A stretch of DNA of 64,000 nt, taken from positions 1 to 64,000 of the forward strand of contig CANSNC010000004.1 in the NCBI GenBank assembly GCA_947648205.1. The letters run 5' to 3'. The position numbers and the translations under genes were made by a program. This stretch comes from an uncultured Mycoplasma sp. Lineage in GTDB: Bacteria; Bacillota_I; Bacilli_A; Mycoplasmatales; Mycoplasmoidaceae. The notes below the pieces were generated by a model that was not told the DNA's origin, made no database searches, and worked only from the letters and a program-made list of their open reading frames with translations. Shown piece by piece: positions 12,668 to 52,389 of this stretch (within the stretch, counting starts at the first letter, position 1; every line of letters begins with the position of its first letter).

Positions 12668-15600
12668 ATGAAAAAAACTAATAAAAGGAATAAAATTCTA
12701 TTGTTTTTCCCTGCTTTAATTGCTTCTATTTCTTTAATTCCGACAATTGGAATTTTAGCATCTAAAGGCATTAGCAGAAGTGATATGAATAATTCTAAAA
12801 TAAATGCTGATGATACAACTCAATCAACATCGAATGTTAAACCTCTTGTTCCATCAGTTTCAAATATGTATAACCCAAAATTAAGTTCTAAAAATGGACC
12901 TATTGTTTTTTGAAAAAACAAAATTACAAGTTTAGACTGATTTGGTGCTGAACGTTGATCAATAGATGTTACAACAATTACAATAGATGGTATACAACCA
13001 TTTGTAGTTAATGGAAACAATAATACAGCATGAAAGAGAAATTGATTAAATTTTGATTTGGATAAAACTAATGATATTTTATATATTCTTTCAAATGCAA
13101 AATTTAATAGTAAACAATATGCTGTAGCAATTAATGTTCAAACTGGTGTACCTACAAAAAAATATGAAACAGCAGAACCTATTACTGGTGAATTGAATAT
13201 GAATTCATTCTTTATGTTAAAAGTTTTAACAAATGGTAATTTAGCATTTTTAGGTAGACCTGGTAATATAGGAAATGGTGAAACAGATACAATAGATGTA
13301 GTTGATATTAAAACTGGAGTTACTACTAGACGTAAAGGAAATATTGATAATAATATTGCTCCTCTACCGCAAAATACAGATGGTAATGATTATTCAAGAT
13401 CTAATAATGCAGTATTTAATCTTATTCCAATAGGCACTAATAGAAATTTGTTAGCTATTTATAATTTAACAGGTAAATCAAATACTACAGGTGATGATGG
13501 TGCTATTAATGGTACATCTGAAGTTTGATTTATTTTAGTTGATGATAATCTACAAACTGTTTCTACAGCAAATGAAAAATGACAAAGAGCTGTATCTGTT
13601 ACACAAGGAATTACAAATACTCGTAATAGTAAAACAAGACCTCAATGTGATTATCATGTTTTACTTGATGGAAGAGTTGTTACTGTAATTTATGATAAAT
13701 TAATAGTTATAGATCCAGCTGATTTAAACAACCCAACACTTGCAATATCTACATTAGATGCTGATAAATGAATTGAATCTTGATCTTTTGATAGTAATGA
13801 GTCTTTATTCTTTAAAGCAAAAAATTCAACACAAATAAAAAAAGTTACTTTAGATCAAGATAGATCAAATTTTGAAAATCCAAATAATGTAATTTCTCCA
13901 TATTATGATCTTGCACAATCTCCAATTGATGAAATTAAAGCATGTGCAAATTCTTTAGTTTTATATAATGTGTATGGTTATATTGGTCAAATTATGTTAA
14001 TTAATGCTCATTATCAAGAAGGTATATTAGATGCTTTATATCCAAATGATACTGTTGTACAACAACAAAAATATGGATTAGCTGTTGCTATTACAAATAA
14101 TAAAGATGTTGATGGACAAGGTGATACAAAGGGATTGTTAAATACTGAAAAAGCTTATCAAAAATCTGCTGATTATGATATTAATGCAGATTTATTAAAA
14201 ACAAAATTACCAAGTGAAATTACAAGAAGTGATATAACATTCTTAAACAATTCATTCTTAACTCAAAATACCTCTAAAAATGATGATGGAACTTTAAAGT
14301 ATGAACCTTTTGTTAAAAATGAAATAGATGATAATGCAAAAACATTAAAATTAACTTTATACTTAGATCAAATTCCATGATTTGTAACAGATGGTGTAAT
14401 GCCTAATAATGTTGTTCCATTACAAATCACTAAAACTTTCAACTTTACATCAGATATTAATTCTAGATTTAGTTGAAAACCAGTTGATAGAGATGATTAT
14501 GATTTTAAAAATACATTACCTTCAAAAATTACAGGTGATGATATTGAAAGAGTTAGCCCTTTAGTATCTACACTAACTAGTCAAAAGGTGACAATTAATG
14601 ATGTTAATTATCCTAAAACAACTTATACTGTTACAACTGCAAATGATAGTACTGGTAAACTAATTATTAAAGCTGATTATCAATATCTTCCAATGGAGTT
14701 AAAAGCTGGTGTAGAAAACTTAAAAACTTATACCACAACAAAAGAATATACTATTTTCAAGAATTCAGATTCTAAAAAAATTGAATTTGTTGGTGGTGCT
14801 GGAACTACAACTACTGATATATCTACAGTTCCTGAATTAAAAGATATAAAGGAATCAGATGTATTACCAAGTTCATTCTCAAATGCACCAAAACAAGAAT
14901 ATTTAAGATTTATTAATACATCTAAAACTACAGGTTATCCATTAGAAAAAATTAATATTACTGTAACACCAAATGATACAACTGGTACTTTAACTATTAA
15001 TCTTGATCCAACTAAATATGACAGTAGTTTACCTATGATTTCAAAAACATATACTGGTTTAAATAAATTAACACAATATACTTTTCACTTTACTAATGGT
15101 GAAGGTTTTAATAGATCAGTTTATTTACCAAGTGATATTAATGAGGAAATATTTTATAAGAATTTTGTAAGATTTAGTGGATTTGATTCATCTGACTTTG
15201 AATTAGAATTATTTCCAAATAATGACACTGGTACATTGGTTGCAAATGTTATTTTAATGGGTGATTATCCAAATGGTCCTGAAGCTAATACAGATTTCAA
15301 ACAAGAAGATGGTAAATGAATTGCTAAAATTACTTTAGATAATTTTAAAAATACTGATGATTATAATAAAGAATATCAAGTTTCATTTAAAGAAGATGGA
15401 GATAAAACATTATCAGATATTCAAAAACTAACACCTGCTGAAATAGAAAATGGAATTACAAACAAAAATCTAACAATTGGTGGAACTACATATACTTCAG
15501 TAGAACAATTATCTGATTTATTTATTGCAACAAGAGGAATTAAAATTCCTAGTACAAATGTAAATAATACTAATGTAAGTGTTGAAATGTTTATTAATAA

Positions 15601-16030
15601 TGGTGGTGGAGAAATAGCTTGAAGAATTACATATAGTAATTTATCAGGTTATCCTAATCCAATTACATTTTTGCAAACAACTACAGGATTTGTAAAAGGT
15701 AATGAAATTCCAACAGCTGATGTTTTAACATTCTGTAATTCTAATCAATTAAAAACTAAACAACCAACATATTTTAATATGTTGCCTAGTCAAATTAAGG
15801 ATATGCTTGTAAAAGATAAAAAAGCAATTAATAATTTCTTTTTAAGCCCTCCAACAGGTGGTTATTTAACTGCAGTAAATAGTGGAGATTTTACATTAGA
15901 AGTTATAGCAGATGATAATACAGGTTCTTTAAATATTAGAATAATCTTTGTAAGAAATAATACTAATAATATAGATTCTAAATCTTTATTAGAATATACA
16001 CAAACATATACTGGTTTATCTTTTAATTAA
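12668..16030 (+). CDS. Giant surface protein, paralog of the preceding gene
   Basis: The 1,120-residue protein aligns along its whole length with the gene at 9148. Both share an N-terminal hydrophobic anchor without Cys, the block NGPIVFWK, the propeller-like first half and the C-terminal series of Lipoprotein_17-like repeats ending in YTQTYTGLSFN. Some blocks are nearly identical between the two, for example the coding of NTRNSKTRPQCDYHVLLDG. The pair therefore arose by duplication, with possible later exchange. Each copy has its own promoter and terminator, so the two can be expressed separately. Trp codons are TGA throughout. Export is supported by the signal segment; binding partners are unknown. 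Confidence 0.8.
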
Positions 16031-16067: not shown

Positions 16068-16638
16068 TAATGTATGTTTTTTTGATGAAAATAGGATTTT
16101 CAAAATTATTAATTATTTGATTGTTTAAACTAGTTTCTATTATTAAATTATTTTCATTTAATGTCTTATTAAAAATGATTTCTTTATTTTTTGCAAGATA
16201 CTCAATAATTGAATTTGCTCTTTGCAATTCAATAGTAATTTTATATATATTTATTAGAGATAAGTCACATATATTTTTTAAATCATTTGTCACTAATGTT
16301 GAACTATGATAATAGCTTCTAGACAATAAACCAACTCCAAGTTTTGTTCCATTCATGTATCTAATTACAACAATTAAAATGTTATGTAATTTATTTATTA
16401 ATATAGTTTCTAATATTTTTTTACCTGCAGTATTTTGTGGTTCATTATCATCACTAAATTTTTGTTTATCATCAATTTTATAAGCAAAACAAATATGTTT
16501 TGCTTTTCTATGATCTGATTTTAATTTACTTAAAATATCATTTATCATACTAATTTCTTCAACATAAAAACAAATGGAAATAAATTTTGAACCATTAATT
16601 TGATAGATATATTCTTTTGTTTTTTTAATTGTTTTCAT
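16048..16638 (-). CDS. YigZ/IMPACT family protein (UPF0029)
   Basis: The 196-residue protein carries the signature of the YigZ/IMPACT family: KSxF-like GSKFISICF near residue 17, HICFAYKI, SDDNEPQNTAGKKIL and the glycine-rich VIRYMNGTKLGVGLLSRSY. A variable C-terminal domain follows. Family members are thought to act in translation or its regulation, but the molecular role in bacteria is unsettled. The ATG complement ends at 16638 and has no clear ribosome binding site. The next minus-strand gene upstream is pfkA, 85 bp away. Confidence 0.88.
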   Translation of the reverse strand: MKTIKKTKEYIYQINGSKFISICFYVEEISMINDILSKLKSDHRKAKHICFAYKIDDKQKFSDDNEPQNTAGKKILETILINKLHNILIVVIRYMNGTKLGVGLLSRSYYHSSTLVTNDLKNICDLSLINIYKITIELQRANSIIEYLAKNKEIIFNKTLNENNLIIETSLNNQIINNFENPIFIKKTYIKKTYNS

Positions 16639-20263: not shown

Positions 20264-21778
20264 ATGAGAAAAATTAGTAAGAAAATATTATTAACAACTT
20301 TAGGTATTACAAGTTTTGCTATTGTAACTCCTTTAATATTAACAAGTTGTGGAGATAATACTAGTAACACACAAGGTGGAAATTCAACAAATCCTGATAC
20401 TCCTAGTGGTCAAAAAATAACACCAACTTTTAATAGCAGTTTAGAAGTGATTGGTACTATTGAGTCATTGTTTGATACTCAAGGTAATTTGGTTGATGTA
20501 GGTGCATTATTTACTCAAATGATAAAAGATAACCCTTCATTAAAATCAAAAGTAATTTCAAACTATAGTTCATTTACAAAAGAACAACAAGATAGTATAG
20601 TAGTGCAAATTACAACTAATAAACAAACTGATATTCAATGAGGTGGAACTACTACTTATGAAACATGAGGTGCAACAGCAAATATTGAAGTTGTTTATTA
20701 TAATATAGGTTCACAACAATTAGATGTTTCAAGTCCAAAAGATTTAAAAAACCAATTAACAGCTGAAAAACTAAAACAAATTATGACTGAAATTGGTAGT
20801 TCTAATGCACCAGAACCAAGTGCTACTTATGCATTAGAAGCAAATAGTCAAATAGCGTTTGATGCTAAAAAAGACTATGTAAATATTCATGTTAAAGAAA
20901 CTTTTAACAATAATACAAAAGATATAAATTTAAGAATCCCTGTTTCTGATTTAAATTTAGTATTAAAGGATGCAGCTGTTAATGTTACAAGTTCAAATTC
21001 TAATGTACAACCAACAACTGCAACATTGTCTCTTGACTATAATGTTGGTATTGATCCAACAGTACATTTAATTCCAGAATTTAGCCATGATGTACAAGTT
21101 GATGCAAATCCACAAATAAATGATGTTAATGCAGTATTAGAAAAATTAGGTTTTATAAAATATAATAAAGTTAATATAGAAAGTTCTTCTCAAGTATCGT
21201 TAAAGTCTGCTACTACTTCTTCATTGGATAATGAAAAAATTGGTGAAACAACTCAGATTTTTAATACACAATTTTCTAATCCACAATTAACTAATAATAC
21301 TGGGAAACATTCTTTATCATTTGATGCAGTTCCAATGAATGGTCATTATTGAACTGATGGTACAACTGCATCAAGAAGACTATCTATTAATAATTTAAAT
21401 ATTACTTCTAAAAATTTACCACAGGATGCTACATTTCAATCAACTGTAGATTATGATGATAGTGCTGCTAGTGTTCCTGGTTCTGCTAGTTTAGAATCGT
21501 TTAAAAATTGATGAACTAGCAGTCCAGGTCAAGGACAAACTATTTCAGATAATGCATTACGTACTCTTATACCTGCTGTAACTCAATCCAATGGATTTGC
21601 TAATGTTGTTTTAACATATGCAGGTGATAATAATATTTCATGGGATGCAACTCGTAATCTTCCAATTATAAAATTAAATGTTACTCCAGCTGAAAATCAT
21701 GCTTTTGCAACTGATGCACCAAAGATAAGAGAAGTTTTAGTTTCATGAACTAACATTAGTTGGAATTCTGCATCTTAA
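20264..21778 (+). CDS. P35-like lipoprotein (isolated family member)
   Basis: The 504-residue lipoprotein has the signal MRKISKKILL...LILTSC, with lipidation at Cys near residue 29. A Ser/Thr/Gly/Asn linker and a long extracellular domain follow. It shares with the three tandem genes at 47.7-52.4 kb the blocks SLFDTQGNLVDVG, LRIPVSDLNL, ETTQIFNTQF and GHYWTDGT, and a C-terminal HAF...V motif. It is a diverged member of the same family. From memory the family resembles P35 lipoproteins of Mycoplasma penetrans. Unlike the tandem copies, its upstream region has no long T tract, so it may be expressed constantly. RBS-like AAGGAAAGAAG precedes the ATG. Confidence 0.8.
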
Positions 21779-37115: not shown

Positions 37116-40100
37116 ATGGCTAAAAGGTCTTTAAATATTTTATGCTCTTGTATAACTAGTTTCTTAGTATCAGCACTAACTATAACACCTACAATATACT
37201 TTAATCAAACAAGTTTACAGTCATCTAATAATATTGATAATAGCATTAATTCATTAACTTCTACTTCTACAACTACTAATAAAGCATCACTGTTTGTTAG
37301 TAATAGGAATAGTGATTATGAAAGTCCAAATGGAATAGTGCAACTAAAAAAGGATGCAAATAATCAAACTGCTCTTGAATTTGTTTCATACTTTAATAGT
37401 GTTTATTGAACATACAATATGGTTTCACCAACAACAGAAACAAATAAATCAATTTTAAGTTTACAACCTGATTTTAAAAGTTTATATAGTACTAGTGTTA
37501 AGTATAATCCTTACTCTAACACATTTTTTGTCTATGGTACATATATAACAACTAACAATGATAATAAGGCTGCATATTTATTTCAATTAGATGCTAATAC
37601 AGGTAGAGAGATAATTATTAATAATTCTCCTTCTACTTCTCTTTGAGTTGAAAAACAGTATATAAAAGAAATTGAAGGAATAGTGATGTATGGTGTAACT
37701 AATAGTGTTTTAGTAATACCAAAATATGAGTATTGAGCTTCAACTATTACTAATACTGTGCTATTTAGAGTTAATTTTAGTGCATACACTTCTGTTTGAC
37801 TTAAATTTCAATCATGAGCTATTCATTCTACTGCACTTGGTAATCTTACTAAAAATACTAACCATAAAATAGGTTCAATATTTGAATTAGGAGATGATCT
37901 AGGTAGATGAGGTATGACAATATTAGACACTACAGATCCTGATACTTTAAAATATAAATATGCTTTTTTTGATGATCAAATATATTTCTATGGATTTTCA
38001 ACTAATTGAGAGACAATATCAACTAAAAATCCTAATAATGCAACACAGACATGAAGTAAAAACTATGGTGAGATATCAGTAGCAGACCCTGTTTTTTATA
38101 GAAATGCTACAACTGATACTTATACAATGGTTGATATGAATGTTAACCCTGTAACTTCTTCTTCTTTTATTAGTGGTGGTGACATCAATGCAACAGGAAG
38201 TAGTGAAGTTCGTATGTCAACATTTACTTGATCTAAAGGGTTTAATCCTACAAATACTGTTAATAAAACTCAATTGGCTAATAATGGTAAGGTTAATTAT
38301 GTATACCAATTCAAAAGAGATGCAAAACATAATCTTTTATATATGAGTTGTTATCCTTATAATGCAGAAACTAATACAGGAAGATCAATTAACACTTCTT
38401 CTACAAATTTATTTTGTTTTGCAATTACTCCTGGGCAGACAACTCTTACTTCTCTAGGAAGTGTTGCCACTTCATACTCATTTACTGGCAAAAGAGCAAT
38501 TTTAAATTTTTCAGTAATAAATGATTATCATATTGATGGATTAAATCCTGAGAATGCTAGTGCAAAAAGTTCTTTAGTAAAAGAAGTATTAGCATATACA
38601 ACAGAACATACAAGTATTACTGTAGATACACCAATTGCAAATATTCATCAGAAAAGAGTATCTAATGCAAAAAATGCTAGTGGTACTTGAACAAAGGGTA
38701 ATGACATAGATTGAGGTGCTTTTGCAAAAGGTGATTATTTAGCTACAGCAACTGCAAGTGATCAAATTAATAAATTACCAGGTGATGTTGATGAAACAGT
38801 AATTCCTAATTGAATAACATATACTAATGGTACTACTGCTGTGGATTATTTAACTAATTCTTTAGAAAATGTTACAGCTCCTAGTGGGTATAGTTTATCA
38901 TCAAGTGGTAAAATGGCATACAATAATGAAACTGGTGCTTTAAAAGCAAGAGTAAAAAGTGAATTGGCAAAATGATGATATGAAAAGCCAACAACTGGAG
39001 CTCTTGAAGGATATGATAAAGTTGTAAACTATACAGATATGGAAATTACTGGATTTGCCACTATAAGTTCATTAATGTTTAAATTAGTAACAAGTTCTGA
39101 AGTAGATGCTACTAAATGAGACAAAATTAATAGAGAATATCTTGGAAAAAAATTGCCAAGTCAATTAATTGCTCAACAATTTTTGGATGATTTTATTATT
39201 CAAGGAAATAAATTAAATATAACTGCTAGTGATATTTTTCTTAGAACTGCAGACCAAGCAAAAGACACTTCAAAAGCAATTGATATTGTTTATAATGATG
39301 TTAATGGAACATTAACTGTTGAATGAAACATGACAAATAAAAGCTCTCCAGGAATTACTCCAAGTTATTTAGCTGGAACTTATACATATACAGGTTTTTT
39401 AAGAACGTCAAGTTATGCAGCAATAACTTTAGATAATACAGCTTTTACTGCACTTAAAGCAAGAAAATTAGCTTATGAATTCACAATTGAAGATATGTTA
39501 AAAGTTGTTACTTTATCTGATGGTTATAATACTGATGTAGCAAACTGACAATTGCAATATACAGAAAATCCAGGTACTGAAAATTACAATAATAATTTAA
39601 TTAGTGGTACAACAGGTTTTACATTCTCTTACAAAAGAACAGATGATATTCCTTCATCAATAGATGATACAATGCTAAAAGTTACAATTGATTCAACAAA
39701 TGGAACGGGTTGTAAAAAACTTGAAGATTATATAGGTGGAGCAACTGTTACATCAACATCTAACCTTGATCCAAAATTATCTGGGATTTATTTTGATGAA
39801 AAATATGCTAATTCTTTAACTGGGACAGAGACTGCAGAAAATGTTGATTCTAAAATAAATAATTTAATTTCTCAAACAATTAGTGTTGATCTAGATTGAT
39901 TTAGTGTAAATCAATTTATACCTGTTAAAAACTCAACTTTATCAGTTGATAATAAAGCTGTATATGATTTAACTTTAAAAGATGATATTACTAGTAATAT
40001 TCAAATAACAAGAGATGGTGTTACTAAACAAAGTTTAGTGATATCAAAATCATTACAAGACAAATTAAAATTAACACGTCCTAATATGTTGAAAATTAAT

Positions 40101-40727
40101 TTTCAAGATGATTTAAGAGTTACTTTTAATTATCAAAGTGTTAATTATAATTGAAATTATGATATTGCTCCAACTGATGGAACAAATTCAACAACTGTGG
40201 ATTTTCAATCATTAGTAGAAAAAGTTAACCTTGATAGAGAAACAAATAAAATGGAATTACTTCCAACTGATTATCCATCAGCATCAGCTTTTGTAGATAA
40301 ATACATTAATAATATTGACTTATTCAAAAAAGACTTTAATCTTATATCAAATGCAGGAGTGAAATTAACATCTACAGGTACACCAACAGATCCAAGTTAT
40401 TTTGAAATTACAGAAGTTGATATGATTGCAAATGATCAAAATGGAACAGTTTTAGTTAGATATAAATTGTATTATCCAAATTTAACTAGTTCTATAGAAG
40501 TAACTACATCACCTGAAATAACAATTACAGGTTTTCCATCTTCTAGTATTGCTATAACAATTTTAATTGTTGTAGTGTCATCACTATTAATTTTATTAAC
40601 TGCATTAGTTATTTGATGAATGGTTTACATAAATGTGAAAAGAAATAAAAAATTATATCAATATAGAGACAAATATAACAAAAAATCATTTGCAAAAATT
40701 TATAAAAATAAAGTTGTAAAAAATTAA
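37116..40727 (+). CDS. Giant membrane-anchored surface protein 1 of 3
   Basis: The 1,203-residue protein is the first of three tandem paralogs. An N-terminal hydrophobic signal or anchor (about 7-30) is followed by a Ser/Thr/Asn-rich stretch and a long extracellular part. The first half has repeated short beta blocks with aromatic and Gly residues, which may form a propeller. The second half has Lipoprotein_17-like units (NDVNGTLTVEW, YTYTGFL, NDQNGTVLVRY). Near the C-terminus is a membrane helix (about 1147-1170) and then a basic tail ending in KIYKNKVVKN, presumably cytoplasmic. Trp codons are nearly all TGA. TAGGAG precedes the ATG. The function is not known. Confidence 0.8.
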
Positions 40728-40755
40728 TTAATACAAATGTTTAAAAAGGAAAAAT

Positions 40756-43700
40756 ATGACTAGATTTAAAGCAAAAAAAATATTTTATTCAATATTTGCT
40801 TTACCAATTATTTCATTAATTGGTATTTTTCCTTTTGTACCATTGAATAATATTAATGATATTAATTCACAAATAATTCAAACTAATCATTTAAATAACA
40901 ATGCTACAACATCAATTAACTCTATTAATAACTTTACAGATTATGATTCAATTGTTAATACTACTACTTTTCAATCTATTTCTACTAAAATAGGTTTTTT
41001 AGGAAAAACAAAAGATAGTAAAACAGCAATTTTAACAAGTTATAGTGGAGTTATTGTTTGATCAACTACAATATCACAAATACAATTAGTTAAAGATTTT
41101 TATGCAAATAAAGGTATCAATGATATATCAACATATACTATTAATGGTTGAGTTAATGTTACATTAGGCAGTCAAGAATATATTTCAATTTTATTTGGAA
41201 CACCAACAAATGAAAATCAAATAGTACTATTTTTAGATGCAGCAACTGGTATTGTTTTTACTCCATATTCAATAGCTAATCCTAATTCTACAAATACATT
41301 TGTAGGAAATATGGCATATGTTGGAGATGGGCAAACTACACTTTATAAAACAAGTAGGTCAAAAATTTTAGCAATTGGTGGCACAACTTCAAGTGATATT
41401 TCATCTAAAGCACAAATTGTTACACTAACAAATACAAATATCAGTTCTATGCAACCTAATATTTCTTCAATTGGTTTAAGTGAAACTGATTCTTTTGTAG
41501 GATTTACACCAGGTTTTCTTTCAACCTCTTCTACAGTTGATTTTTTTCAATTTAAAAAATCAGATGGAACTATTTATACTGTTGCTGTAGATCAAAATTT
41601 AAATAATATTTTGAATTCTAGTAGTCAAAAAGTTAGTCAAGATTTAAGTGTGTTTACACCAACTTCATCTTTTACTGAAGACAAAATAATAAAATATGGT
41701 TTTTCTTGTACTACAAATAGTGCTGGTGTTAATACTCCAAAATTTGTTTACTTAGTTCCAGGTAGTTCAACAAAATTACATTTAGTAACTTATAATGTAT
41801 CATCTAAATCATTTTCAAAAACTGAATTTGACATTTCCATTTCTAAACCAAATGATGTTATATCAAATGCAATTTTTGACTATACAAATAATAAAATATA
41901 TTTTTCATTATCAGCATCAGATGATTCAATAATTAGCTATATTGATGTGTCAGCCTCTACAATGAGTTATCAAACTTTAAAAGCTAAAGGAAGTATAACT
42001 ATTAATAAGCCATGGTTAATGTCTCCTGTTATTAATAGTGGTACAAGTTCTGCTTTTGTTGCTATTAACAATGAAAATAAAGTGGTTAAAAATTATATTA
42101 AAACAGATAATACAACAGCACCAGAAACAGAACTTGCATTTGCTAAATATCAAGATCCTGTAGCAAATATTAAAGCTGATACAAATATTATGAAAGGAAC
42201 AATGGCTTCAAGTGTTAGTGCATCTTCATTAAAAAATCATTTAGTATTTGTGGGTAATTCTTCAGGTTATACAGTTGAAGTGTTATCAATGAATTCTGAT
42301 AATAATAAAGGTACATTGTCATTTAAGTATGTTGTTAAGTATAAAGCTTGATGAAGCGATTCTGTTACTCAATCATTTGATATTCCTATTTTTATTGATG
42401 GTATGTATACACTTTCAAATGTTAATGTAGCTTTTGTTGTAAGTGAAAATATAGATCCTACAAAATATGCAGAGATTGAAAAATTAAAAGAAAAAAAATC
42501 AGCTAATATAATTACAAAAAAAGAAGTTCTGGACAATTTTATTGTTGCTGATATTACAGATAAAAATGGTAATAAATTACAATTACAAGAGCAATACATT
42601 ACACTTGAATCATTAGAAAATGATTATACTTTAAAAGTTACTCTCAGATTACCAAGTGGAAATTTTCCAACAGGATTTAATAACTTAACTTACACTGCTT
42701 CTTTTAAAGGGTTTAGTAAACTAGAAGGATATGATGCTAGAATTTTAAATGATAATGATACTTCTGTAACATTACTTAAATCAAAATTTCCTTCTGAAAT
42801 AACTTTTGAAAATGTAATGTCAAGTTTTATAGATTTTAAATCATCTGGTTATTCATATTACACATCTAGGGAAAATTGAGATTATGAATCTACTTATGAT
42901 GATTATTTAGGAACATTTAAAATAACTAAATTGTATTATAAAAGAACAGATGGTGTACCAAGTTCATTGTCTAATTCAAAAAGAGAAATAATAGGCTTGA
43001 ATAATCAAAAAACATATAATAATTTTAAAAAAATATTGTCAAGTTTTAATGTTTCACCTGTTTTAAAAAATGTTCCAACAAGTGTTGCTGGAACAATGAC
43101 ACCAGTTGATGCATGGAATGAATGGGATCAAGCAATTAGTTCAGGTAATAATAATGAAATTATTAGTACACTTTTATACAATAATATAGATTTTAGTTTA
43201 GTAAAATCTCCAAGTGATTTAGTGTTTACACCTTTGAATTTAGATACAGCTAATCAAGAAAAAAAATTAGTTTTTAATATAAAAATTAAAGAGGGTGCAA
43301 CATTAAATATAAAGTATAAAGGTAATGATTTGGTTTTTAGTAAAGAAGTTGAAAATAATTTAATAAGTAAGAATCCAAATAAAAATTATTACCCTTTTAG
43401 AGCAGAATGGCAAATTGATTCTTTAAATGAATATTTTGAATGAAATATTCCAGAAGGTTCTGGATTTAGACATGATATTGAAAATGGAATTGAAAGATTA
43501 ACTATAAATTTAGATCAACAAAGTTGACAATTAATTAATAGAACAATGACTGTTGATGAGTTTTTATCAAATCCTGTTCAATACAAAACAGCAATTGTTC
43601 AATTGTTTAATTATTCTGATAATTATGAAATTCAATTTTCAGAACCTATTTCAAATTATGAGCAAGGAATTGTAACTATAAGAGTAGATTTTATTGATAA

Positions 43701-44085
43701 AACTACAAGTCAAACAAATGCAATAAATCTTAATAAAAGTACAATAAGAAGTGTTAGTTCTACTAAAGAAATAACTATTGTAGGTTTTAAATTGCCAACT
43801 TCAAAATTTGCAATTATAATTCCTATTTTACTATCATTAATTATTGCATTAGCATTAATCATTAGTATTACATATATTTTTTTAAGAACAAAAAAGATAC
43901 AAAAAAATAAAAAGAAAAATTTTCAATCACAAAAATTACTTGAAGAAAGAAAAGCAAAATATGTAGTGGTTGAATCAGTTGTTAAAAACGATAATAAGGA
44001 CTCACTAAATAATTTAAATAACAAGAATAACAATCTTGTTGTTAATAGATTTCAAGGAACAAATAGCAAATATAAGAAAAGGTAA
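40756..44085 (+). CDS. Giant membrane-anchored surface protein 2 of 3
   Basis: The 1,109-residue paralog of its neighbours starts 28 bp after the first, behind AAAAAGGA. It has an N-terminal hydrophobic segment (about 9-32) and an Asn/Thr-rich linker. The block TKIGFLGKTKDSKTAILTSY matches SVGFLGLSKDKKTIILTSY in the third gene. Lipoprotein_17-like repeats are in the second half. A C-terminal membrane helix (about 1017-1040) precedes a Lys-rich tail. A few TGG codons occur (for example at 42013 and 43114) among the TGA Trp codons. The shared N- and C-terminal membrane segments suggest it is anchored at both ends, with an extracellular loop of about 1,000 residues. Confidence 0.8.
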
Positions 44086-44097
44086 GAGTAATTTATT

Positions 44098-47000
44098 ATG
44101 ATGAGAAGAAAAATTAGTAGGTTTAAAAGAATATTATCTATAGGGTGTCTTACAATTATTCCTATATCTTTGGGGTATGCATCAACATTTGCATTAGTTA
44201 AGCAGAATAATAGTTTGATTGATGTTGATAGTGTAAAAAATAATAAATTAAATGATTCAACTACTACAAATAATGCAACTAATAATTCAAAATTAATAAG
44301 TGGACTTGATGCTATTAATAGTTATTCAGATTATGATCCAATATACTCAAGTGCAACACATCAAGTAGTAAGTAATTCAGTAGGATTTTTAGGATTATCA
44401 AAAGATAAAAAAACAATTATTTTAACAAGTTATAATGGTTTGGTTGCATGGTCAAATAAAGTTACAGAAATTGGATTAGTTACAAGTTTTCTTTCAACAA
44501 TTGGTGTTAATGATACTACTAATTATACAGTTGCTAGTTGATTGAAAATAGACGAAAGTTATTTAGCTGTGTTACTACAGTCAACAGATACTAATCAACC
44601 ATCAATAACATTTTCTCTAAATATGAGTAATGGTGAAATATATTGTCCAAAAGTTGATAATTTTGGTAACCCTATACCAGCTAGAAATATTGTAGAACTT
44701 CCACATGAAGTTAATGCAATAGTTACAGCATCTGAACAAGGAACATATTTTGCTCTTCCTATGGGAGAACAATCAAGAAATACTGCAAAAAAAGTTACAC
44801 TTGTTTCAGTTAATGCACAAGGTGTTAGTGGTTTAGATTTACAGAATTTAAAAGTAACAACTTATAATGATGAACAAATTTTAAGTATAACTCCAGGTGC
44901 TAAAGGATCAGATAAAAACTTTTTATTAACTTATTCTCCAACAACTACTAAATTTACAATTTATGTTATTAATGGGCAATTTAAAAATTGATATGTTGGG
45001 CTAAATATAGCAAAATATTCTATTGATAATAGTCTTTTTCATTTAAATAATTTTACAGATGATCAAAAAACTGAATTATTTAATTCAACACATAGACAAG
45101 GTTTTTATATAGGTGATAGATCTACACTACCAACATCAAACCTAATGAATATATTAATTCCAATGTATGGAGATCAAACAAGCACTTCAGGTTATATTTA
45201 TGCAACTTATAATAACTCAAATGGAAATTTAACAACACAAAAAATTACTAATACTTCATCAACTGGAGTAGAACAACCAGCAGCTGTTACAGTAGAAGGA
45301 ACAAAAGTTTTTTACTCATCTAAAAAAACATCTTTAAATACAATTTTTGGTCAAATGGATATATCTAATCCAACATCTCCAGTATTTACAACTATTAAAT
45401 CATCAACAACTGAAGCTCAAAAGGCTAAACCTTGATTGTTTGCACCAGTTAGTGGAACAAATGGTGCTGCATATGTTTACATTGATACAACTAGTACTGG
45501 TGGTGGTATTAAAAGAGAACATTTAACAGGAACTACATGATCTAATCCTATTGATTTATCATTTAATAAATATACAGATCCTGTTAGTTCAATTAAAAGT
45601 AATAGCATTTATACAGCAAAAATTGTTAATAGTATAACTGATGCTGAATTAGTTAGTTTACTTAATTTTAGTAATAATTCTTTAAGATCAACATACACAA
45701 TTTCAATAGCAAATAGAACTAATAATCCAGATAATGGTATTTTAGAATTTGACTATAAAGTAGAAACTGTGTCATGATGAAATTCTGCATCTAGAACAAC
45801 TTTTTATATACATGTAAAAGTTGAAGGTTTTTATGCACTTAGTAATATTAGTTTAGCTTTTGTTAATTCGCCATCTGTTGATAATACAAAGTATCAAGCA
45901 ATTAACCAATTAAAAACTACTAAATATGCAGATCAGGTAACAAAAGCAGAGATATTACAAAGTTTTATTAAATATGATATAACAACTAAAAGTAATACAA
46001 AATTAACATTGACTGAGACTCATATAACAACTTCTGTATCAGCAGATAAAGATGCATTGACAGTAACTGTTAGATTACCAGCAGATCAATTTCCAACAGG
46101 TATAACTTCTTTCTCATCAATAATGACAAGAACATATACATTTACTGGTTTCTTATCATTATCAGGTTATAATTTTACAGTTAACTCTGCTGCTAGTGAT
46201 AGTTTAAAAACAAAATACCCATCACAGATAACATTTGATGACATTATTAATCAAGTTGTTAATTTAGGTGCAGCATATTCTAAAGCATCAACTGATTGAA
46301 CTTGTAATTATACATCAGATGATTTAAATGGAACATTAACTATTAGTGAATTAAAATATACAAAACAATTACATCAACCAGTTCCTGATGACAAGAAAAA
46401 TATTATATCAAGTCCTCTTGTAATTTCTGGATTAAAAAATACTGCAAGTTTATTTACTAAAAGACCAACAATTGCAAATATACCAAAATCAAGTAGCGTT
46501 GGTAAAACACCATCAAGTATATGAAATGAGTATAAAACAGCAGTTGATAATAATGATGCACTAACGCTTTCAAGAAATTTAATTTATAAATCATTATCAA
46601 ACCCTGTAACTCTTAGTAAAGATGATTTGGTTTTGAATATAACAAATCTTGCTACAGCAGATGCAGATGGAGAACTACGTTTTGATGTAACAATTAAACA
46701 AGATTCTAAATTAGTAGATAAAGTTGGTAATCAAAATGTTGTTTTTGATGCAGCATATGAAAATAAAATAAAACAACTTTATCCTAGCGTTTATCCTTTT
46801 AAATTAATTCAAAAAGTTGAAATGGAAAAATATGATGTAAATTGAAATTCTTCAACAATAGAAAAATTAGATAATGCAACAATGGATAATGATAATAACA
46901 TTGTTATTGATTTAGATGTTAATCAATGAAATGGTGTTACAAATTCAATGACAGCTAATGAATTTACAGATAATTATGAAAATTATAAAGATAACATTTT

Positions 47001-47496
47001 AGGATTATTTTCATATACTGATAGCTATATACCAAATATTTCAAAACCACTTAGTAATTTAACTGAGGGTACAGTTGTTGTTCAAGTGGAGTTTACTCCA
47101 GGAATATCAGTTGATAAAAATAATAAAAATAGTTTGATAAATTTAAAATCAAATGAATCTCAAAATACTGCTGTAGGCTCTGTCTATAAACAAGTAACTA
47201 TTCAAGGTTTTAAAATTCCTTCATCTCCTATGTTAGAATTTTTACCATTTATAATTATTATTGTTTTAGGATTATCGTTATTAATTTTATTTATTTTTAT
47301 AGTTATAAGAACAAAGAATGCAAAGAAATTAAATGATAAAAAATTTATAAGACCGATTGTTAGCAAATCAAAAAAATATTTAGGATCTAAAGAAATTGTT
47401 GTTGAATCTTCTTCAATTTTAGGTTTGGGATCAAAAGAAGTTATTAAAGAAGAATTAATTAACAATACTAAAAAAGAACCTAAAAAATGAATTTAA
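44098..47496 (+). CDS. Giant membrane-anchored surface protein 3 of 3
   Basis: The 1,132-residue third paralog starts 12 bp after the second. The first ATG is 44098; ATG 44101 is equally possible, and the ribosome binding site is weak, as in a coupled operon. It has an N-terminal hydrophobic segment (about 12-33) and the shared block around residues 95-120. Propeller-like strands and repeats with LP-type motifs (YPSQITFDDIINQ, TYTFTGFLSL) follow. A C-terminal helix (about 1042-1065) precedes a basic tail rich in Lys and Ser. An operon terminator follows. The clearest similarity is to the second protein. Whether the three act together in a complex is unknown. Confidence 0.8.
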
Positions 47497-47502
47497 ATTA
47501 AA

Positions 47503-47533
47503 TGAATCTATAACTTAGTGTTATAGATTTTTT
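47503..47533 (+). terminator. Terminator of the giant surface-protein operon
   Basis: The stem GAATCTATAAC (47504-47514) pairs with GTTATAGATT (47520-47529) across a 5-nt loop. T residues follow. Confidence 0.8.
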
Positions 47534-47587
47534 ATTATTTAATTTAATAAAATTGTTAATTATTTTTAAAAAATAATTCTGTAGGAC

Positions 47588-47617
47588 TTGACTTTTTTTT
47601 TTTTTTTTTTTGATAAG
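47588..47617 (+). promoter_or_regulatory. T19-tract promoter of P35-like gene 1
   Basis: TTGACT (47588-47593) and GATAAG (47612-47617) are separated by 18 bp made only of T; the full T run is 47593-47611 (19 T). The motif CTGTAGGACTTGAC before the tract is shared with gene 2. A change of one or two T would shift the -35/-10 distance around the 17-bp optimum. GATAAG matches four of six -10 positions and lacks the last T, so the -10 assignment is tentative. Confidence 0.65.
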
Positions 47618-47663
47618 GTCATAGTGTGTTGAAGAAAATTAAATAAGAAACGAGATAATGTAT

Positions 47664-49142
47664 ATGAAAAAAATTAGTAAGAAAATCTTGCTTGCCACTT
47701 TAGGTATAGCAGGATTTGCAACTATTACTCCTGTTATCTTAACTAGTTGTTCAATTAGCACTAATTCACCTACTAACCCAGACAATCCTAATAATCCTGA
47801 TAACCCTAGTACAACAAAAGTTGTACCAGAAGTTGCAAATAATATTGAAACAGTTGGATCTGTTGCAGATTTATTTGATAATCAAGGGCAATTAGTTAAT
47901 GTTGGAGAATTATTCAACAATAAGGTAAATAGTAGTGATGAATTGAAAAAACAATTAATTACAAATTATGATAAATTTACTCAAGAACAAAAAGATAACA
48001 CAGAAATTAAAATTTCAACAGAAACACCTTCTGGTGATTTAACATGAGGTGGAACAACTCCAGTTGAGACATGAAATACTGCTCAAACTGAAGTTGTTTA
48101 CTATGACATTAATTCTCCTGAGATTAATGTTTCAAGTGCAAAAGATTTAAAAACAAAATTGGATGCAAATAAATTAAAAGAAATAATGAGTCAAGCTAAT
48201 AGAGCTGATGCTGAAAATATGACATATTCTTTAGTAGAAACAAGTCAAATAGGACTTGATGCTAATAAAGATTATGTAAATATAAATGTTAATGAAGCAC
48301 CAGCATCTGGAACTGCTAAAAGTCTTAATCTAAAACTTCCAGTTTCTGATCTAAACTTAGTTGTAGATTCATCAAAAGTTAGCATTGTAAGTAAAAATCC
48401 ACAAATAGTAGAATCAAAAGAAGCTACAATAACTTTAGACTACAATATTGGTATTGATAGTAAAGTAGTTTTACCTACAACATTTAATAAGGCAATTACT
48501 TTAGATTCTCCTGATATTACTCCTGAAAATGTTGTTACAAAGCTTGGCTTTGTTGAAACTGCTGTAACTACAACTTCATCAACAAGTGCAATAAATTTAA
48601 ATAGTGATTTCATTGGGCAAACAACACAAATATTCAACACAACGTTTGCAAATCCTACTTTAAATGAAAATAATACAACACTTTACTTTGATGCAACTCC
48701 AACAACTGGACACTACTGAATTGATGGTACAAACACAACTAAGCAAGTTGCTATTGAAGGATTAACTATTACTCCTGGTCAAGCATTACCAAAAGATGCT
48801 AAATTTGCAAGTTCTTTCACTCTTAACAATCCATATAATACAAATAAGCAAGCAAGTTTAGAGCAATTTAAAATTTGATACAATAGCAACAATACTAGTG
48901 GTCAAAAAATTGGTGATGTAATAAATCAAACAGCTATTACTGCAATGAATGCAGACACAGCTAATTTTGCAAATGTGACATTCACTTATAAAGGAGATGA
49001 TAGTATGTTGTGAGATGCAACTGCTAAAAAACCATCAATAGTATTTACTGTTACTCCACAAGATCAACATGCATTTGAGGATAATGTTCCTGCAACTCAT
49101 GAAGTAACTGTTCTTTTAAGTGGTGTAAGATTTACTAGTTAG
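47664..49142 (+). CDS. P35-like lipoprotein 1 of tandem array
   Basis: The 492-residue lipoprotein has the signal MKKISKKILL...PVILTSC, with lipidation at Cys near 29. A flexible Asn/Pro/Asp linker (NPDNPNNPDNPST) follows, then a surface domain with the family blocks SVADLFDNQGQL, LKLPVSDLNLVV and TTQIFNTTFANP. The end has HAFEDNVPATHEVTVLLSG. ATG 47664 matches the starts of its paralogs; ATG 47658 is in frame but probably not used. It has its own promoter with a T19 tract and its own terminator, so it can be switched independently. A 779-bp internal segment is identical to gene 3. Family assignment to P35 of M. penetrans is from memory. Confidence 0.85.
47995..48773 (+). repeat. 779-bp segment identical to 51260-52038 (copy 1)
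   Basis: Direct comparison of the two stretches finds no difference. The flanks differ at once: G at 47994 versus A at 51259, and C at 48774 versus G at 52039. The segment encodes the middle of P35-like gene 1. Such identity inside otherwise diverged paralogs points to recent gene conversion or duplication. Confidence 0.9.
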
Positions 49143-49168
49143 TAATAATTTAAAAAAAATATTTTTTT

Positions 49169-49199
49169 AAATCTATAACATAATGTTATAGATTTTTTT
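49169..49199 (+). terminator. Terminator of P35-like gene 1
   Basis: A 13-bp stem AAATCTATAACAT (49169-49181) pairs with ATGTTATAGATTT (49183-49195). T residues follow. An A8/T7 palindrome lies just upstream. Confidence 0.8.
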
Positions 49200-49244
49200 G
49201 TTATTTTTTTAAAATTATTTTTTTAGAAACACATTCTGTAGGAC

Positions 49245-49273
49245 TTGACTTTTTTTTTTTTTTTTTTGATAAG
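49245..49273 (+). promoter_or_regulatory. T18-tract promoter of P35-like gene 2
   Basis: TTGACT (49245-49250) and GATAAG (49268-49273) are separated by 17 bp of T; the full run is 49250-49267 (18 T). The 17-bp spacer is the optimum for the main sigma factor, so of the three copies this one is predicted to be in the most active state. Confidence 0.65.
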
Positions 49274-49316
49274 GTAGTATTGGTGTTGAAAAAAATAAAA
49301 AAGAAATGAGATAATA

Positions 49317-50786
49317 ATGAAAAAAATTAACAAGAAAATCTTGCTTGCCACTTTAGGTATAGCAGGATTTGCAATTGTTACTCCTGTTATCTTAACTAGT
49401 TGTTCAACTAGCACTAATTCACCTAATAATCCTGATAATCCTAATAATCCTGATAACCCTGGTACAACAAAAGTTGTTCCAGAAGTTGCTTCTAATTTTG
49501 AAGTAGTAGGATCAATTGCAGATTTATTTGATAACCAAGGTAAATTAGTAGATGTTGGAGAATTATTCAACAATAAAGTTAATGGTAGTGACGAATTAAA
49601 AAAACAATTAATTACAAACTATGATACATTTTCTCAAGAACAAAAAAATAATATAGAAATTAAAGTATCAGCTCAAACTCCAAGTGATCTTGTTTGAGGC
49701 GGAACAAATGCATTTGATACTTGAAATACTGCTCAAACTGAAACTGTTTATTATGATATAAGTTTAGCTGAAATGAATGTTTCAAGTGCTAAAGACTTAA
49801 AAGACAAACTAACTGATGCAAATACACTTAAGACAATTATGACAAAATCAGGAAGAGCTAATGCAGAATCATCAACTTATGCTTTAGTTTCTGATAGTCA
49901 AGTTTCACTTGATAGTAACAAAGATTATTTAAATATTAATGTAACTGAAACACCAACAACTGGAACTGCTAAAAATCTAAATTTAAAGCTTCCTGTTTCT
50001 GATTTAAATTTAGTTTTAGATCAATCAACTGTTAGTATTGTAAGTAAAAATCCACAAATAGTAGAATCTAAAGAAGCTAAAATATCTTTAGATTATAATG
50101 TAGGTATTGATAGTACAGTAATTTTACCTACAACATTTAATAAAGCTATTACTTTAGACTCACCAGATGTGACAGTTGAAAATGTTGTTCAAAAATTAGG
50201 TTTTGTTGCAAATGCTGTAACAACTTCTTCATCAAACTCTTCAAGAAATACAATCTCTTTAAATAGTGAATTGATTGGCGAAACAACTCAAATATTCAAC
50301 ACAACTTTTGCTAATCCTACACTAAATACAGAAAATACAATTTTATCATTTGATGCTACACCAACACAAGGTCATTATTGAATTGATGGTACAAATTCAA
50401 CTAAGCAAATTTCAATTGAAGGTTTGACTATAACTCCTGGTCAAGCTTTACCAAAAGATGCTAAATTTGCTTCTGATTTTACATTAGCAGATAGATACAC
50501 TATTACTGGAACTGCAAGCTTAGATACTTTTAAAACTTGATTAGCTAGTGGAAATAATAAAAACTTAGTAACAACAAACACAACTAATAAAATGAATGCT
50601 GACACTGCTAATTTTGCAAATGTAACATTTGCTTATAAGGGTGATGATAGTATTCTATGAGACAGTACAACTAATAAACCAAAAATAGTATTTACTGTTT
50701 CTCCGCAAGATCAACATGCATTTGAAGACAATGCTCCTCAAGTTCGTGAAGTTACTGTTCTTTTAAGTGGTATAACATTTAGATAG
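49317..50786 (+). CDS. P35-like lipoprotein 2 of tandem array
   Basis: The 489-residue lipoprotein has the signal MKKINKKILL...VILTSC and the same Asn/Pro/Asp linker and domain blocks as gene 1 (IADLFDNQGKLVDVG, KLPVSDLNLVL, ETTQIFNTTF, GHYWIDGT). It differs from gene 1 at many scattered positions through the middle, for example TLKTIMTKSGRANAES where gene 1 has KLKEIMSQANRADAEN. Its 5' third is nearly the same as gene 3. The leader and weak AGAAATGAGA site before the ATG are shared with gene 3. It has its own T18 promoter and terminator. It should be exposed on the cell surface, with antigenic variation the likely purpose of switching. Confidence 0.85.
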
Positions 50787-50818
50787 AAGTTAATAAATAA
50801 TTGTAATTAGTAATATAT

Positions 50819-50853
50819 AAAAATCTATAGCACATGAATGCTATAGATTTTTT
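50819..50853 (+). terminator. Terminator of P35-like gene 2
   Basis: The stem AAATCTATAGCA pairs with TGCTATAGATTT and ends in a T run. The gene 3 promoter begins only a few bases later at 50858, so terminator and promoter are nearly fused. Confidence 0.8.
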
Positions 50854-50857
50854 GTAC

Positions 50858-50884
50858 TTGACTTTTTTTTTTTTTTTTGATAAG
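50858..50884 (+). promoter_or_regulatory. T16-tract promoter of P35-like gene 3
   Basis: TTGACT (50858-50863) and GATAAG (50879-50884) are separated by 15 bp of T; the full run is 50863-50878 (16 T). A 15-bp spacer is shorter than optimal, so this copy may be weakly expressed or off in the sequenced clone. The sequence after GATAAG is nearly identical to that of gene 2. Confidence 0.65.
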
Positions 50885-50928
50885 GTAGTATTGGTGTTGA
50901 AAAAAATAAAAAAAGAAATGAGATAATA

Positions 50929-52389
50929 ATGAAAAAAATTAGCAAAAAAATCTTGCTTGCCACTTTAGGTATAGCAGGATTTACAATTGTTACTCCTGTT
51001 ATCTTAACTAGTTGTTCAACTAGCACTAATTCACCTAATAATCCTGATAATCCTAATAATCCTGATAACCCTGGTACAACAAAAGTTGTTCCAGAAGTTG
51101 CTTCTAATTTTGAAGTAGTAGGATCAATTGCAGATTTATTTGATGATCAAGGTCAATTAGTTAATGTTGGAGAATTATTCAATAATAAGGTAAATAGTAG
51201 TGACGAATTGAAAAAACAATTAATTACAAATTATGATAAATTTACTCAAGAACAAAAAAATAACACAGAAATTAAAATTTCAACAGAAACACCTTCTGGT
51301 GATTTAACATGAGGTGGAACAACTCCAGTTGAGACATGAAATACTGCTCAAACTGAAGTTGTTTACTATGACATTAATTCTCCTGAGATTAATGTTTCAA
51401 GTGCAAAAGATTTAAAAACAAAATTGGATGCAAATAAATTAAAAGAAATAATGAGTCAAGCTAATAGAGCTGATGCTGAAAATATGACATATTCTTTAGT
51501 AGAAACAAGTCAAATAGGACTTGATGCTAATAAAGATTATGTAAATATAAATGTTAATGAAGCACCAGCATCTGGAACTGCTAAAAGTCTTAATCTAAAA
51601 CTTCCAGTTTCTGATCTAAACTTAGTTGTAGATTCATCAAAAGTTAGCATTGTAAGTAAAAATCCACAAATAGTAGAATCAAAAGAAGCTACAATAACTT
51701 TAGACTACAATATTGGTATTGATAGTAAAGTAGTTTTACCTACAACATTTAATAAGGCAATTACTTTAGATTCTCCTGATATTACTCCTGAAAATGTTGT
51801 TACAAAGCTTGGCTTTGTTGAAACTGCTGTAACTACAACTTCATCAACAAGTGCAATAAATTTAAATAGTGATTTCATTGGGCAAACAACACAAATATTC
51901 AACACAACGTTTGCAAATCCTACTTTAAATGAAAATAATACAACACTTTACTTTGATGCAACTCCAACAACTGGACACTACTGAATTGATGGTACAAACA
52001 CAACTAAGCAAGTTGCTATTGAAGGATTAACTATTACTGCTGGTCCAGCTTTACCAAAAGATGCTAAGTTTATTAGTAATACTACTAATACTGGTAGATA
52101 TACTACAAATCTTTCAGGAAGTTTAGAAAATTTTAAGACATGATTAAATGGTAATGGTAGAGTAGCTATTCAATATGTTATTAATGACATGAAAAGGGAT
52201 ACAACTAATTTTGCAAATGTAAATTTCACTTTTAAGGGCATTGAAACAGGTGGAATATCTTGAAATCAAGATATTAAAAGAGGTTCATTGATTTATACAG
52301 TAACACCTATTGATCAACATGCTTTTGAAGATGGTGTTCCTGACGTTCATGAAGTTACTGTACTTTTATCTAATGCAATATTTAACTAA
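50929..52389 (+). CDS. P35-like lipoprotein 3 of tandem array (mosaic)
   Basis: The 486-residue lipoprotein has the signal MKKISKKILL...VILTSC and family blocks as in genes 1 and 2. It is a patchwork. From the promoter to about 51145 it follows gene 2, including VPEVASNFEVVGSIADLFD. From there it follows gene 1, and 51260-52038 is identical to it. From 52039 it has its own C-terminal sequence (NTTNTGRYTTNLSGSLENF) before the shared ending DQHAFEDGVPDVHEVTVLLS. The frame is intact, so the mosaic yields a complete product. It has its own T16 promoter and terminator. Confidence 0.85.
51260..52038 (+). repeat. 779-bp segment identical to 47995-48773 (copy 2)
   Basis: This is the second copy of the identical segment, in P35-like gene 3, offset by 3,265 bp in direct orientation. 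Recombination between the copies would delete or duplicate the intervening gene 2. Confidence 0.9.

Follow-up and report, generated by a model that had tools for sequence, protein, structure and literature searches.

In Mycoplasma hyorhinis, slippage in a poly-A tract of the promoter controls transcription of the vlp lipoprotein genes, and in M. mycoides dinucleotide repeats within the promoter spacer of vmm alter its spacing (PMC10502178). A promoter whose -35 and -10 elements are split by a long adenine run has likewise been likened to slippage-controlled promoters of Mollicutes (PMC11213901). The P35 genes of M. penetrans, on the other hand, are switched by promoter inversion (PMC10502178). 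A first-pass annotation of a 64,000-nt stretch of Mycoplasma sp. DNA (henceforth the window) had cited both the vlp and the P35 precedents, in agreement with the published account, and had proposed that three tandem P35-like lipoprotein genes are switched by slippage in promoter T tracts. Here, we compare this locus with the remainder of its source genome (G000, a single draft assembly of 999,747 bases, 1.0 Mb), with other genomes of the genus and order, and with the described systems.

T-tract promoters of three P35-family genes

The three tandem genes encode products of 486-494 aa in the mycoplasma code (TGA = W), and all of them match PF07668 (E values 1e-37 to 1e-40; 130-139 bits against a cut-off of 22.7). 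This model represents M. penetrans paralogue family 1 (MpPF1), the P35 family, and the name P35-like was thus well chosen. As read from the translations, each product has an N-terminal signal peptide with a lipobox cysteine (ILTSC near residue 29). Directly 5' of the cluster, three consecutive large ORFs of 1203, 1109, and 1132 aa occupy positions 37116-47496; the 1203-aa ORF contains a Lipoprotein_17 domain, and the other two have no Pfam match. The PF07668 genes and the elements preceding genes 1-3, as located by pattern search of the sequence, are as follows.

20264-21778, + strand: fourth PF07668 paralogue, without a T tract
47588-47593, + strand: TTGACT, -35-like element of gene 1, within GACTTGAC (47585-47592), whose GACTTG(N)C is common to the tract promoters of a second species
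47593-47611, + strand: T19 tract of promoter 1
47614-47619, + strand: TAAGGT, putative -10 box for gene 1 with a 20-bp spacer
47658-49142, + strand: gene 1, PF07668 lipoprotein (paralogous start 47664)
49245-49250, + strand: TTGACT, -35-like element of gene 2
49250-49267, + strand: T18 tract of promoter 2
49270-49275, + strand: TAAGGT, putative -10 box for gene 2 with a 19-bp spacer
49317-50786, + strand: gene 2, PF07668 lipoprotein
50858-50863, + strand: TTGACT, -35-like element of gene 3
50863-50878, + strand: T16 tract of promoter 3
50881-50886, + strand: TAAGGT, putative -10 box for gene 3 with a 17-bp spacer, candidate for the ON state
50929-52389, + strand: gene 3, PF07668 lipoprotein

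The tract elements lie 46-50 nt 5' of the three genes and have the form TTGAC-T19-GATAAGGT (47588-47619), TTGAC-T18-GATAAGGT (49245-49275), and TTGAC-T16-GATAAGGT (50858-50886). The tract lengths and starting positions given in the first-pass annotation (T19, T18, and T16 at 47593, 49250, and 50863) were confirmed to the base, although each length, coming from one draft assembly, could be off by one or more; its statement that the flanks are constant outside the tract also holds, with TTGAC before and GATAAGGT after at all three sites. No further site of this form exists in the 999,747-base assembly. TTGAC followed by at least 15 T occurs three times in the window against 0.00 expected from 100 dinucleotide-preserving shuffles, and T16 has eight overlapping occurrences against 0.07. 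The three-promoter pattern is not due to chance.

Proposed position of the -10 element and spacer length

The first-pass annotation had taken GATAAG (47612-47617 at gene 1) as the -10 and had given TTGACT-GATAAG distances of 18, 17, and 15 bp. These distances are counted rightly, but a comparison of 17 tract promoters from G000 and from a second species of the genus (G008, a single-contig genome of 1.28 Mb) points to another box. In eight of the nine distinct downstream sequences a TAnnnT motif starts 1-3 nt past the tract, against an average of 1.56 in shuffles, and in the ninth, at 16068 of G000 contig 6, a TATAAT is formed with the last T of the tract. These boxes are found 40-50 nt before the ATG, a zone of genome-wide TATAAT enrichment; ordinary G000 promoters have TATAAT 30-50 nt before the start codon. 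The comparison suggests that the -10 of genes 1-3 is probably TAAGGT rather than GATAAG. With this box the TTGACT spacers become 20, 19, and 17 bp. Were 17 bp the optimum, the candidate for the ON state would be gene 3 with its T16 tract and not gene 2, whose T18 tract had been taken as the strong state.

The homopolymer is uninterrupted between the assigned -35 and -10 at all three genes, the boxes having been placed by comparison rather than by mapping. No -35 consensus is visible in ordinary G000 promoters aligned on their TATAAT boxes, and TTGACA-N12-23-TATAAT is not above control across the genus and yields no optimum spacing; dependence on spacing is therefore an assumption, and the 17-bp rule is taken from other bacteria. 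TAAGGT is a poor box, and transcription could start elsewhere; its poor match also suggests that the tract promoters need a -35 more than ordinary promoters do. A consensus promoter scanner, whose spacer and hexamer limits exclude the three sites, did not list them, and with a count for the region below that of shuffles its output is uninformative. In a cluster of six such promoters in G008, one has T16, corresponding to a 17-bp spacer, and five have T19, corresponding to 20 bp. With an optimum of 17 bp these five would be mostly OFF; alternatively, the best spacer would be a longer one.

Probable promoter slippage and its alternatives

We consider slipped-strand phase variation of the promoter spacer the most probable explanation of the three lipoprotein promoters, with a probability of about 0.72 on the sequence evidence. 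Each gene would have its own sigma-A-type promoter, consisting of GACTTGAC with TTGACT as the -35, a T tract filling most of the spacer, and the poor -10 TAAGGT, because of which RNA polymerase would probably need the two boxes to be correctly spaced. Slipped-strand mispairing, presumably at a high rate in vivo, would add or remove T residues and thereby change the spacers from their present 20, 19, and 17 bp. Provided that expression depends on spacer length, each gene would, independently and reversibly, be turned up or down or switched on or off, with the 17-bp spacer of gene 3 as the presumed ON state, and antigenically mixed populations would result, to which recombination among the paralogues would add further sequence variation.

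Promoters 2 and 3 share 51 identical bases (16 T and the next 35 nt) and their tracts nonetheless differ by two T, and the tract of promoter 1 has one T more than that of promoter 2. Different tract lengths with unchanged flanks are thus seen among paralogues of one assembly, which shows change on the time scale of duplication and not a rate per generation. These differences bear on an alternative in which the T tract is a static or graded promoter element, acting by DNA bending or as an UP-like A/T tract, that tunes promoter strength modestly without ON/OFF switching. T-rich regions occur in extended promoters of Borrelia outer-surface lipoproteins, as cited in PMC2525819; the ordinary promoters here have no -35, so the T tract could stand in for it, and five of the six clustered G008 tracts have the same length. 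A static element should, however, tolerate interruptions, whereas the tracts are uninterrupted, differ in length between near-identical promoters, and are bordered by conserved -35-like and -10-like flanks; we regard this alternative as unlikely.

A reading of the tracts as U-tracts of intrinsic terminators, or as part of a transcript leader, rather than as spacers is highly improbable. The gene before each tract promoter ends in its own hairpin with a 10-14-bp stem and a T run, located before the tract.

47505-47529, + strand: terminator-like hairpin of the gene 5' of promoter 1, AATCTATAAC/GTTATAGATT followed by a T run, apart from the tract
49169-49195, + strand: terminator-like hairpin of gene 1, 13-bp perfect stem, apart from the tract of promoter 2
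50819-50852, + strand: terminator-like hairpin of gene 2, 14-bp perfect stem, apart from the tract of promoter 3

Since the upstream genes have their own terminators and the longest stem adjoining any of the three tracts is 2 bp, we rejected the tracts as terminators; they also sit at the -35/-10 position between conserved flanks. What speaks for a U-tract is the behavior of other long T runs in G000, several of which (T14-T17) sit directly after hairpins. The assembly has 12 runs of at least 14 T, of which four follow hairpins and are terminator-like, one adjoins a tRNA-like gene (by eye), and two, on contig 16, have no clear gene; the latter (T15 and T19, at 2144 and 4201) are followed by similar sequence (AAAAGTGNCATTTTTTTGCCAAAAA) and could be linked to neither a promoter nor a hairpin. 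The remaining five lie 43-50 nt 5' of surface-protein genes, namely genes 1-3 and two genes on contig 6. At 10635 of this contig, TTGTC-T17-GATATTATG precedes a 163-aa lipoprotein with a GTG start, and at 16068 TTGTC-T15-ATAATTA precedes a gene (13322-16024, with the TATAAT box 43 nt 5') for a 900-aa protein with papain-like protease and lectin-like domains. This protein may be phase-variable as well.

Recombination, either promoter inversion or gene conversion, could alternatively be the main switch, as in P35 of M. penetrans (PMC10502178), with the tracts being incidental. Segments do move between the paralogues: genes 1 and 3 are identical over 779 bp, a region in which gene 2 is 58-88% identical to them, and this identity points to recent gene conversion or recombination.

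47995-48773, + strand, in gene 1: 779 bp identical to 51260-52038 in gene 3

As a positive control for inverted repeats we used 13 P35 promoters of an M. penetrans-like genome (G001). In ten of them, exactly inverted 12-bp repeats of the form TAAYNNNNATTA are located near -225 and -78, counted from a fixed downstream motif. By length alone such a repeat equals or slightly exceeds the 95% level of the shuffles (11-12), but the repeats are clear because their position and shape are fixed and their inner bases vary from gene to gene and yet still pair. They fit the promoter inversion described for M. penetrans (PMC10502178). No long T tract was found on the P35 genes of this genome. At the G000 and G008 tracts, by contrast, exact inverted repeats reach at most 8-11 bases and are T/A-rich, at varying positions, and within the shuffle range; the short flanking inverted repeats of M. 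penetrans-type invertible promoters are absent from the three tracts, whose longest exact repeats (9-11 bases) do not exceed shuffles, and all three promoters are oriented towards their own genes. Promoter inversion at the cluster was rejected by this comparison, and recombination as the main switch is, in our judgment, less probable still than a static element. Given this contrast between G001 and the two tract-bearing genomes, the antigen family appears to have two different switches within a single genus. The original proposal of a T-tract mechanism distinct from P35 inversion is supported in part, namely by the tract architecture with three lengths between unchanged flanks, its recurrence in another species and upstream of surface genes outside the family, and the lack of an inversion signature; its assignment of the box and of the ON state is not supported.

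Distribution of the element and comparison with known systems

Searching nine other genomes of the genus for PF07668 identified carriers in G001 (43 members), G008, and G006. About a dozen G008 promoters contain the element, composed of GACTTG(N)C, T16-19, GA or GAG, and TAnnnT; GACTTGC-T16..19-GAG-TATACT stands 37-52 nt before the start of six lipoprotein genes in tandem and of several further genes, with GAT-TATACT, GAG-TAGCAT, and GAA-TAGGAT as variants after the tract. GACTTG(N)CTTTTT runs on into at least 16 T at all three sites in G000 and all nine in G008, and its matches in other genus members are ordinary short runs; the reversed-pattern control has no match in G000 or G008. Four of the G008 tract genes are PF07668 members; others encode products of unrelated surface families, one of them a Lipoprotein_17 protein. 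As the element is found on non-homologous genes, its conservation is not merely the duplication of one gene.

Other observations were made in these genomes. In G008 a T18 tract at 767895, followed by GATATGGT, lies 52 nt 5' of a nucleotidyltransferase gene, which may act on surface sugars and be phase-variable. The G008 lipoprotein cluster includes two identical 326-aa transposase genes, IS30-like by eye, in opposite orientation (L078, 8668-9648 and 15547-16527), and homologous recombination between them could invert the intervening segment. In another species of the genus (G009, contig 5), TTGTC-T16 with its tract at 126548 lies 5' of a gene (L082:4664-6271) whose product is homologous to Protein M, which binds antibodies (PF20757, E 1e-11).

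In the order, 31 of 298 genomes and 14 of 46 genera have CTTG(N)C followed by at least 14 T with a TA no more than nine bases further on, and none of the 298 has the reversed CTTG(N)C-T14+ pattern. The sites inspected in other genera (L160-L189) lie 5' of lipoprotein genes, in several of these genera, and also of two restriction genes of the GmrSD type, of an aquaporin-like gene, and of genes for an N6 methylase and a PTS transporter, in proportions that are biased because the inspected sites were partly chosen from genomes with many hits. These gene categories are typical of contingency loci, and the elements may be homologous or merely convergent. Tentatively, and with somewhat less than an even chance of being right, we propose that CTTG(N)C-T14+-TA is a widespread mollicute contingency promoter through which lipoproteins, transporters, and restriction-modification genes of many genera undergo phase variation, and that P35 antigens have moved between slippage and inversion switching within one genus.

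In the accessible, largely non-subscription literature, P35-type genes with a T-tract promoter were not found to be described. As far as this literature shows, three points are new, namely a T-tract form that has a defined motif, its occurrence on P35 antigens instead of inversion, and its spread; control of mycoplasma lipoproteins by slippage in a promoter homopolymer is already known from the vlp poly-A promoters (PMC10502178). The locus provides a sequence-defined, testable candidate switch for a major family of surface antigens in a species other than M. penetrans. It suggests two unrelated switching mechanisms for related antigens of a single genus, and its motif is usable for listing candidate phase-variable genes across many poorly studied mollicutes.

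Among the described systems, vlp of M. hyorhinis likewise has a homopolymer in the promoter of every member of a lipoprotein family (PMC10502178); here, however, the coding strand carries T and not A, the antigens are of PF07668, the flanks are the fixed GACTTG(N)C and TAnnnT, and the genus is another. The vmm system of M. mycoides shares the repeat inside the promoter spacer (PMC10502178), whereas the repeat here is mononucleotide T, changes in 1-bp steps, and serves a multigene family. Poly-T in the promoters of variable surface lipoproteins is also found for vlp/vmp and ospAB of Borrelia (PMC2525819), where, however, there is a single telomeric vlp expression site and the tracts have 46-174 T. 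P35/mpl of M. penetrans shares PF07668, the genus, and tandem gene copies with the present locus, and differs from it in inverting at short inverted repeats of a kind that is absent from the tracts described here.
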